Assembly (NCBI GenBank): GCA_016916535.1
Contig: CP070276.1
Span: forward strand, 248,001 to 312,000
Direction of reading: 5' to 3'
DNA from: Dysgonomonadaceae bacterium zrk40
Lineage (GTDB): Bacteria; Bacteroidota; Bacteroidia; Bacteroidales; Dysgonomonadaceae
Length of the DNA stretch: 64,000 bases
Position numbers and translations under genes: made by a program. Of the stretch, positions 3,454 through 55,606 are shown one piece after another; within the stretch, counting starts at the first letter, position 1, and each line of letters opens with the position of its first letter. The notes under the pieces are model-generated. The model was not told the origin of the DNA, searched no databases, and saw nothing but the letters and a program-made list of their open reading frames with translations.

Positions 3454-4110
3454 ATGTCAAAAGAGAAATTTTACACCGCCAGGGAAGAGAAGGCCAATTG
3501 GCTGACCCACGGGCTGGGAGTGCTGATGGGACTCGCGGGATCGCTCCTGCTGATCGGAAGAGCTGTTGTAGCGGGTGACCAAAGGGCGGTGGTGGCCTTT
3601 GCCCTCTTCGGCGTGGGGATGATCGGATGCATGGGTGCCTCCACCCTTTACCATTACGTGCAGGAGCCACTGCGCAAAGCCATGCTGCGTCACTACGACC
3701 ATGCAGCCATCTACCTGCTCATCGCGGCAAGCTATTCACCTTTCACGCTGATCCTGCTGCGGGATGAACCGTTCTGGGGCTGGTTTATTTTCGGGGTTGT
3801 ATGGCTGATCGCACTCACCGGCATCCTCATCAGCTTCCGTCCGCTGAAACGCAACAGTCACCTCAAGACCGCCTCCTACGTGCTGATGGGACTGATCGTG
3901 CTGATCGCCTTTAAGCCGCTGCTGGAAGTAGCACGTGCTGCGGATGCCATGAACACGGTGCTCTGGCTGCTCGTGGGAGGAGTCTTCTACATTGTGGGGG
4001 CAGTGATCTACGCCACCGCGAAGCGGGAGTTCGTTCACACCATTTTTCACCTCTTCGTGCTGCTGGGACTTGCCAGCCATATCTATGCCGCCTGGCTGAT
4101 ACCAATGTAA
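3454..4110 (+). CDS. Hemolysin III / YqfA family membrane protein
   Basis: This 218-residue integral membrane protein belongs to the HlyIII (PAQR-like) family, with about seven membrane helices. Family marks are EEKANWLTHGLG near the N terminus, STLYHY, DHAAIYLLIAASYSP, and a last helix with HTIFHLFVLLGLASHIYA. The Ser/Asp/His residues on these helices form the metal site in the PAQR/HlyIII superfamily. The cellular role is unsettled; the name hemolysin comes from one Bacillus protein and should not be taken as function. The start at MSKEKF is preferred because the promoter-like box lies within the longer reading frame. It is monocistronic, with a bidirectional terminator at 4317-4349 after the dispersed repeat. 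Confidence 0.9.
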   Translation: MSKEKFYTAREEKANWLTHGLGVLMGLAGSLLLIGRAVVAGDQRAVVAFALFGVGMIGCMGASTLYHYVQEPLRKAMLRHYDHAAIYLLIAASYSPFTLILLRDEPFWGWFIFGVVWLIALTGILISFRPLKRNSHLKTASYVLMGLIVLIAFKPLLEVARAADAMNTVLWLLVGGVFYIVGAVIYATAKREFVHTIFHLFVLLGLASHIYAAWLIPM

Positions 4111-4164
4111 ACAATTGCGGGAGGAGTTGCCGCTAAATTCCGGGGGATTTTGCCCTCTTTCCTC

Positions 4165-4350
4165 CGTTACTCGTTCTAATCTCGTTCTAATCTCGTTCTA
4201 ATATGGTTCTAATATGGTTCTAACAGATTCGAACCAGTAAAGAGTCAGTTACGAGTGAGATTACACGCTGTAAAAAGCCAAATAAGGCGATTCCCTGTGG
4301 ATGGGATAATAAAAAAGCCATCTCATTTTGTTGATGAGATGGCCTCTTTT
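4165..4350 (+). repeat. Dispersed ~185-bp intergenic repeat, copy A, with 11-bp tandem units
   Basis: This fills most of the 321-bp gene-free stretch 4111-4431. It opens with CGTTACT, then four tandem 11-mers (4173-4216: GTTCTAATCTC twice, GTTCTAATATG twice) and a partial fifth, then AGATTCGAACC, which can pair with the preceding GGTTC. Next come AGAGTCAGTTACGA, GTAAAAAGCCAA and TAAGGCGA blocks, and finally a hairpin at 4317-4343. The same blocks occur in the same order and orientation at 55424-55606. No reading frame of note is present. Whether it is transcribed as part of the hemolysin III 3' UTR or separately cannot be told. Confidence 0.85.
4317..4349. terminator. Bidirectional intrinsic terminator (end of repeat copy A)
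   Basis: A perfect 10-bp stem, GCCATCTCAT with ATGAGATGGC, and a 7-nt loop, with an A-tract on the left and a CTCTTTTTT tract on the right. It can stop the hemolysin III transcript on plus and the MFS transporter transcript on minus. Its core recurs at 34510, 55331 and 55574. Confidence 0.85.
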
Positions 4351-34097: not shown

Positions 34098-34145
34098 ACA
34101 CAAAAGAGAGACTGTCTCAAAACAGAGGCAGTCTCTCTTTTGTGT
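34098..34145 (+). terminator. Intrinsic terminator with 17-bp stem
   Basis: ACACAAAAGAGAGACTG pairs perfectly with CAGTCTCTCTTTTGTGT around a 14-nt loop. It ends the outer-membrane protein transcript. Confidence 0.85.
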
Positions 34146-34222
34146 AGAATATGCCTCATCCTGAAAATGTGTCTGTGTCTCGTCCTGTTTTTGGAAGCTT
34201 ATCCTATATTCTAAGTTAATAC

Positions 34223-34287
34223 CACCCTTATACCCACTCCAATAATTATTGGAGTGGGTATAAGGGTGCAATAAGGGTGCAATAAGG
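34223..34287. repeat. 46-bp perfect palindrome followed by 11-bp tandem repeats
   Basis: Positions 34223-34268 form a perfect inverted repeat with two 23-bp arms and no spacer (arm begins CACCCTTATACCCACTCC, centre AATAATTATT). Directly overlapping its right arm are tandem 11-mers TAAGGGTGCAA at 34261-34271 and 34272-34282, then TAAGG. It lies in the 485-bp gene-free stretch 34080-34564, which otherwise holds two terminators and about 220 bp (34290-34509) where I see nothing further. Confidence 0.9.
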
Positions 34288-34509
34288 CTAGAGGCTCCGA
34301 GAACCCTTCAAGGAGGATTGGGTTGCGGTCTCAAATGGCCCGGTGGCTTCTATGTTTCTTTGTTTTGTACTAGTTAAAAAGAACGGTAAGTTCTCATTCC
34401 TACCAGTGATAATCTGCTACTTCCACCCAGTTTTTGGGGAAATGATTCCGCAAAACGATCCTGGAGGAAGAAGGTTTCGTTAGCCTGGAAAAAGTAAGAA
34501 AGAAAAAAA

Positions 34510-34545
34510 GGCCATCTCACTACAATTATGAGACGGCCTCTTTTT
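34510..34545. terminator. Terminator after the acyl-CoA dehydrogenase gene
   Basis: GGCCATCTCA pairs with TGAGACGGCC apart from one A-C mismatch, with A-tract left and CTCTTTTT right. It serves the minus-strand dehydrogenase and shares its core with hairpins at 4317, 55331 and 55574. Confidence 0.8.
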
Positions 34546-55307: not shown

Positions 55308-55330
55308 ACCATACCCTCCACAATAGTTAA

Positions 55331-55365
55331 GGCTGTCTCATCATATTACATGAGACGGCCTTTTT
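55331..55365 (+). terminator. Intrinsic terminator after mgsA
   Basis: GGCTGTCTCAT pairs with ATGAGACGGCC (one G-T pair) around 8 nt, followed by TTTTT. It separates mgsA from repeat copy B. Confidence 0.88.
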
Positions 55366-55423
55366 CTGTTTATACGTTTCAGTTTGAGTAGCCCTGTTAC
55401 AGGAAGAAACAACCTACTTTCTT

Positions 55424-55606
55424 CGTTACTGGTTCTAATCTCGTTCTAATATGGTTCTAATATGGTTCTAATATGGTTCTAATAGATTCGAGCCAGATTA
55501 GAGTCAGTTACGACTGAATTGATACGCAGTAAAAAGCCAACTAAGGCGAATCTTAGTGGGTGGGATGAGAAAAGGCCATCTCATTTGTATATTGAGACAG
55601 CCTCTT
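55424..55606 (+). repeat. Dispersed ~185-bp intergenic repeat, copy B, with 11-bp tandem units
   Basis: This occupies most of the 336-bp gene-free stretch 55308-55643. It begins CGTTACT, has four full 11-mers (55432-55475: GTTCTAATCTC once, GTTCTAATATG three times) and a partial fifth, then AGATTCGAGCC, AGAGTCAGTTACGA, GTAAAAAGCCAA, TAAGGCGA blocks and a GGCCATCTCA...TGAGACAGCC hairpin with two mismatches. The order and orientation equal copy A. The GGTTC/GAGCC pair keeps the pairing of copy A by a G-T wobble. It lies beyond the mgsA terminator, so it is not just that gene's 3' UTR. Confidence 0.85.

Follow-up and report, generated by a model that had tools for sequence, protein, structure and literature searches.

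Porphyromonas gingivalis, the host of BrickBuilt, which is the closest known system to the repeat described here, belongs to the Bacteroidales, and REP/BIME elements are, like this repeat, intergenic and palindromic. In the passages of PMC4596501 that concern it, BrickBuilt is a MITE of 19 dispersed and always intergenic elements, with a 23-nt unit, 1 to 22.8 units per element and IS5-like ends; the term also appears in PMC5771137, among the matches listed. According to the same passages, the features shared with our repeat are a minisatellite of direct repeats that is enclosed by leader and tail, short inverted repeats at the ends, a limited host range, a variable unit number (between strains in BrickBuilt), long predicted stem-loops and the lack of a transposase remnant inside. 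Instead of the 23-nt unit and the IS5-like ends of BrickBuilt we found an 11-bp unit, repeated a few times and followed by an inverted arm, and AAAGAGGCTGTCTCA hairpin ends; moreover, the unit here differs between species and between element types of one genome, unlike what those passages describe (PMC4596501). MITE464/PgRS of P. gingivalis is also MITE-like with internal tandem repeats, but is described there with 41-nt units and repetitive flanks (PMC4596501). SPRITE and RUP of Streptococcus pneumoniae are intergenic and palindromic as well, and SPRITE is terminator-like, but the relevant section of PMC10969869 mentions no internal 11-bp array. The parC centromere of plasmid R1 consists, in the excerpt of PMC9426499, of phased 11-bp direct repeats bound by ParR, but it is a plasmid locus, whereas our repeat is dispersed on the chromosome and a scan of the genes neighbouring two of its copies (A and B) revealed no adjoining par genes. 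The FopS sRNAs of Bacteroides, with 14 members, are likewise paralogous, non-coding, multicopy and dispersed in a genome of the Bacteroidales; they are defined by sRNA sequence motifs in the abridged account of PMC11697453, and the likeness lies in this description. Within the open-licence literature we found no description of 11-bp direct repeats in intergenic Bacteroidetes DNA, and no title on this repeat among the matches listed for Proteiniphilum intergenic repeats or MITEs. The repeat is best filed as minisatellite-bearing, MITE-like and BrickBuilt-like.

The window, i.e. the whole stretch of 64,000 nucleotides that was analysed (C1:248001-312000 of genome G000, hereafter this genome), contains copies A and B, both with the order of blocks given in the preliminary description (Table 1). 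The two unit types had been counted there as 2+2 in copy A and 1+3 in copy B, and this is right: the successive spacers are CTC, CTC, ATG, ATG and then AGA in copy A, and CTC, ATG, ATG, ATG and then AGA in copy B. The wobble reported for the pairing GGTTC/GAACC is also present (GGTTC/GAACC in copy A, GGTTC/GAGCC in copy B), and the variation in unit types and numbers holds among copies in general and also across orthologues. The extent of about 185 bp fitted the blocks, but the element of copy B begins further to the left, with a hairpin at about 55330; similarly, the reading as a repeat family was correct, but the hairpin-ended, MITE-like nature of the full copies had not been recognised. Copy A has a leader unlike that of copy B and lacks the left hairpin. 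Tandem Repeats Finder returned 11-bp arrays at 4170-4223 and 55430-55484, and GTTCTAAT occurs 9 times in the window versus 1.2 times (sd 1.0) in shuffles. Copy A is located between an HlyIII-like and an MFS gene; copy B has an MGS-domain gene on one side and a gene for a peptidase S46 on the other.

Table 1. Positions, strands and basis of the repeat features in the window.
Feature	Position	Strand	Basis
Copy A leader, G068 type, up to diverged unit 0	4109..4170	+	leader-core alignment scores
Copy A, five direct 11-bp units	4173..4227	+	unit pattern
Copy A inverted arm (about two reversed units)	4228..4255	+	array-arm pairing
Copy A tail with GCC..GGC motif	4256..4310	+	gapless alignments A1, A2
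Copy A right hairpin, then T run (terminator-like)	4317..4343	+	hairpin family D3, folding
Element II, unit CCTTATTGCAC (ATAAGGGTGCA on +), palindromic turn	34101..34300	-	tandem-repeat finding
Hairpin like element ends	34506..34545	+	hairpin family D3
Copy B left hairpin / left terminal inverted repeat	55330..55361	+	folding
Copy B leader including diverged unit 0 CTTCGTTACTG	55362..55431	+	
Copy B, five direct 11-bp units	55432..55486	+	unit pattern
Copy B inverted arm	55487..55514	+	array-arm pairing
Copy B tail	55515..55567	+	tail alignment
Copy B right hairpin / right terminal inverted repeat	55574..55606	+	hairpin family D3, folding

A BLAST search of this genome (3,468,890 bp) with copy A as query gave 54 matches at E<=10. 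The top 30 of them each mark a separate array place on contig C1; at least 30 distinct places are thus present, and a weak array-like match near 2752709-2752760 was left out of this number. The arm pattern AGATTCGANCCAGNNNAGAGTCAGTTACGA, searched with up to 3 mismatches, matched the genome 18 times versus 0 times for the reversed control, and a pattern of three phased units matched 99 times versus 5, where overlapping registers of one array were counted separately. The idea of a two-copy curiosity is ruled out by the 30 array places, and the proposal of a repeat family with more copies, which the preliminary description had made dependent on copies beyond these two, was borne out in this genome (at least 30 places, arm motif 18 versus 0) and in related ones. 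Among public genome contigs the exact arm pattern was found at six loci, five on the Bacteroidales MAG AS23ysBPME_26 and one on Proteiniphilum sp. UBA1403, in a search that may omit the records of the window itself.

Full copies are about 275-290 bp long (about 277 bp at copy B) and consist, in this order, of a left hairpin, a leader, a diverged unit 0, the 11-bp units in direct orientation, an inverted arm some two units long, a tail and a right hairpin. Their inverted ends match (AAAGAGGCTGTCTCA / TGAGACAGCCTCTTT) and each end is a terminator-like hairpin, while unit 0, of which the CGTTACT block is a part, reads CTTCGTTACTG in most full copies. The full form, with one tail type, was found at 12 of the 30 places (L001-L012), incomplete in some; as judged by eye, 10 of these 12 tail-bearing copies have the left hairpin (all but L001 and L006) and 11 have the right one (partial in L004). 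The right end of L007 is interrupted by an insertion sequence (L007 66-1493, with HTH_Tnp_1 and rve integrase-core domains) that is absent from the corresponding UBA1403 contig (L051). At the other 18 places the array is kept and the hairpins are absent or out of position (L030 has one such hairpin beside the array); a decayed tail in the same register was found in some of them and no recognisable tail in others. Gapless alignments from the last two units through the tail were made of 31 (A1) and 49 (A2) sequences, and these omit copies that were off the extraction pattern, duplicated or without recognisable tail, among them L016, L025, L026, L028-L030, L116, L306 and L312. As in MITEs, the elements are short, non-coding and multicopy, and the tail-bearing copies have terminal inverted repeats. 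A coding repeat was rejected because every unit contains TAA on the plus strand and TAG on the minus strand, stops that the 11-bp period puts into all frames, and CRISPR was ruled out by units that stand head to tail, with three variable bases and no unique spacers. None of the 30 arrays lies inside an ORF of at least 250 aa (crude ORF calling, in which shorter overlapping ORFs were ignored); the neighbouring ORFs, called in the same crude way, are convergent at 12 places, co-directional at 16 and divergent at 2, which, against an assumed 25% each for convergent and divergent pairs, makes the convergent excess marginal (p = 0.051) and gives p = 0.011 for the divergent deficit.

The unusual part of this repeat is that its dispersed copies share a uniform unit sequence within one clade and have another in the neighbouring clade. 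Units were collected with a pattern that allowed T, G or A at position 5 and G or C at position 1 and that fixed positions 4, 6 and 7, whose constancy is for that reason uninformative. Position 5 is a T in all 153 units of this genome (30 loci) and in 73 of 73 units of the sister genome G070 (14 of about 20 places), whereas in G068 it is a G in 55 and an A in 2 of 57 units (14 of 17 places, with C110, C54 and C187 left out). Position 1 is a G in all 153 units of this genome, and three spacer positions are variable. Copies in G078 have T-type units, and those in G076 and G062 as well as the single match of G060/G058 have TTCG-type units. As judged from these sequences, the T-type looks confined to the clade of G000, G070 and G078, with C110 of G068 as the exception. 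The latter contig (L116) carries T-type units and may be misbinned, since identity to this genome is 90% in its left flank versus 70-86% in other G068 flanks. Unit 0 is still of the TTCG-type in most full copies here, and the arrays that have lost leader and hairpins are made up of T-type units, as are those of full copies. The number of pattern-matching units differs in 8 of the 13 orthologous pairs of G000 and G070, and in L310 a derived C is found at position 2 in 6 of 7 units, which is absent from the orthologue L013.

We also found other 11-bp elements of the same design. Element II in the window has a perfect palindrome of 46 bp (34223-34268) and units at 34260-34287, and was recognised by eye at six places elsewhere (G000 841748, 1096923, 1856756, 2077310, about 2782600 and 2958196). 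At the site of L053, element I (the repeat of copies A and B) is present in G070 and element II in this genome, and the sequences that flank the two elements are the same. Element III, with a unit of about ATTGGAGGGGC (about GCC.CTCCAAT), first direct and then inverted, was found on contig C1 at ~619,526 and ~677,793 (L265 19526-19570 and L268 17793-17836).

The distribution of the repeat among relatives is narrow. A 107-base query gave matches at E<=0.001 in 8 of 101 family genomes, three of which matched by 26-29 bases only, and model R1 matched at E<=0.001 only this genome itself among 393 genomes of the order (strict filters, 10 candidates scored per genome). At E<=0.1, R1 matched 12 of the 39 genomes of the genus, several of them weakly, and the matches were confined to the genus: 43 in this genome (reverse-strand duplicates included), 32 in G070 (on 20 contigs), 17 in G068, 5 in G062, 3 in G076, 2 each in G056 and G078 and one each in G052, G057, G058, G059 and G060. 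No R1 match was found in G071, G084, G079, G065 (77% complete) and G063 (59% complete). In a two-gene tree the presences are patchy (G000/G070/G078, G068/G076 and G062 with its neighbours). A copy in G056 is on contig C32, which may be misbinned, since it is 96% identical to this genome and G056 is otherwise only ~75% identical at the loci of copies A and B. In G052 (L285 13173-13202, E 0.034) and G059 (L239, E 0.017) the weak matches are 11-bp arrays built of different units. The sampled tandem arrays lend no support to an 11-bp habit of the whole genus: in non-coding DNA 12 of 45 arrays had period 11 in this genome, where half of the sampled stretches were chosen at known copies, against 1 of 8 in G053 and 4 of 11 in G052, and in coding DNA of this genome the share was 7 of 77. 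Among viral contigs there was one exact match to the three-unit pattern, on a contig of 266 kb (L315 1091-1120, three GTTCTAATAAA/G units), and a phage origin was discarded: L315 was judged probably unrelated, as a BLAST comparison of its 8,230 bases with 50 loci of this genome was negative at 1e-20 and a tail was not observed.

At the junction of copy B the element is absent in the five relatives examined (G071, G079, G078, G084 and G065), where another hairpin-like stretch is present, and at the junction of copy A it is absent in the four examined (G071, G078, G084 and G063). G071 has a different short tandem repeat of the AGCTATCAGC/GGTCAGC type at the latter junction (L205). G068 carries an element at the junction of copy A and the closer G071, G078 and G084 do not, so that either several losses or two insertions are needed.

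Copy A itself is a mosaic. Contig C278 of G068 (L295) has an element between the same two genes, its G068 orthologue. When the leader core of copy A (51 bp) was compared within a set of 46 sequences, the score was 74 for the G070 orthologue and 40 for the one in G068; other G068 and G076 copies reached 38, 34 and less, and the 29 paralogues of this genome at most 26. The five units of copy A are T-type, whereas those of the G068 orthologue at the same junction are G-type, and its arm is nearer to most paralogues of this genome than to the G068 orthologue. The tail with hairpin, cut to the element, scored 129 with G070, 116 with paralogue L003 and 112 with the G068 orthologue, and the tail alone scored best with paralogue L004 (92). 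An apparent preference of the tail for the G068 orthologue (144 versus 126) was dismissed as evidence for exchange, as it came from a query that overran into flanking DNA. The discordant part is thus the leader only, which resembles G068 leaders generally (38, 34) and not the orthologue alone. With a leader of G068 type and units, arm and tail of the local type, copy A makes the copies mosaic; its leader and site are thus old and its array, arm and tail local. This fits both a conversion that spanned array to tail and a newer copy that landed on an old relic. At a second shared junction (L009 with G068:C74, L297) the unit types differ and the leaders do not look alike, and therefore these may be two insertions.

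On balance we think it probable that the repeat is a non-coding, MITE-like foldback element that was moved by a transposase and whose minisatellite array turns over by slippage and exchange between copies. A transposase that worked on the inverted ends would once have moved the copies, and these would be tolerated at gene ends because their hairpins can act as terminators; slippage within a copy would change the number of units, and non-reciprocal exchange among copies (gene conversion or recombination) would keep the units alike within a genome. We favour such exchange as the cause of the uniformity of the units, and separate bursts are possible too. By eye, no consistent target-site duplication was seen in the flanks; no base-exact empty site was found at the junctions of copies A and B in the relatives examined, and a scan of 557,644 bp (538,712 of them unique, or 15.5% of this genome) for a parent transposase flanked by matching ends gave none; of two end pairs one lay in a coding region (L259) and the other was the element interrupted by an insertion sequence (L007). 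As neither a target duplication nor a parent transposase was found in these stretches, the name MITE-like is preferred to MITE. It is possible, though we think it unlikely, that the arrays are neutral relics, i.e. minisatellites made by slippage in copied elements without exchange between sites, in which case the split between T-type and G-type would reflect bursts from different masters and copy A a newer copy beside or in an older relic. The high copy numbers in separate clades agree with such bursts, as does the tail of copy A, which, cut to the element, is nearest to the other copies of this genome as a newer insertion predicts; but T-type units adjoin the older TTCG-type unit 0 within one copy, one junction holds element I in one relative and element II in the other, and arrays that lack leader and hairpins share the same T-type units, all of which speak against this reading.

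More doubtful is an array of putative binding sites for a sequence-specific DNA-binding protein, spaced by one helical turn (ParR/parC-like or nucleoid-associated), the unit changing in step because it would co-evolve with its protein. A protein-binding array had been suggested in the preliminary description as well, and is possible. The fixed 11-bp phase, the invariant G and T at positions 1 and 5 next to variable spacers, the persistence of arrays at the 18 places where most of the element is gone and the common design of the unrelated 11-mers of elements I, II and III are consistent with it, and ParR of plasmid R1 requires at least two 11-bp repeats (PMC9426499, in excerpt); the patchy presence among close species is unlike a core chromosome function, however, and uniform units are also expected from recent copying. 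A related and highly speculative notion, to which we give the least credence, is that chromosomal 11-bp arrays evolve in concert because the unit must match a fast-evolving trans-acting DNA-binding protein, with elements I, II and III and the T-type and G-type as unit dialects in one genus. It is also improbable that the repeat is a multicopy small RNA family, with a putative transcript in which array and arm would form a stem and the hairpin end would be the terminator. Copy B is predicted to fold end to end (-85.2 kcal/mol, z -4.9), a strong fold is predicted for copy A (z -4.4), and paralogous sRNA families such as FopS occur in Bacteroides, according to the portion of PMC11697453 that deals with them. 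In the array-arm stem, taken over all copies except L028-L030 (27 of 30), pairing holds at 409 of 486 positions versus 402.0 (sd 3.0) with shuffled arms (p = 0.015), and in A2 74.0% of the cells pair and 31 cells are changed on both sides versus 17.1 (sd 2.9) in shuffles (0/500). Nevertheless, the number of pairs with two-sided change is ordinary (8 versus 6.7, reached in 99/500), a slide by -1 still yields 27 such cells, and the shuffle test is inflated because the A2 sequences form two clades. Since a DNA inverted repeat gives the same signal, the pairing supports a maintained palindrome and not specifically RNA. An Rfam scan of the window gave 0 matches above the gathering score, and the hairpins on both sides would impede read-through into full copies; the suggestion of an RNA repeat family made in that description is thus weakly supported.

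With some 30 sites per genome and orthologues in sister species, the MITE-like element offers a compact natural system for following the turnover of dispersed non-coding arrays in bacteria, and it extends minisatellite-bearing MITE-like elements beyond Porphyromonas. If a protein did bind the units, the arrays would represent a novel type of chromosomal array system, and if unit and protein did evolve in concert, they would be a prokaryotic parallel of the co-evolution of satellites and centromere proteins.
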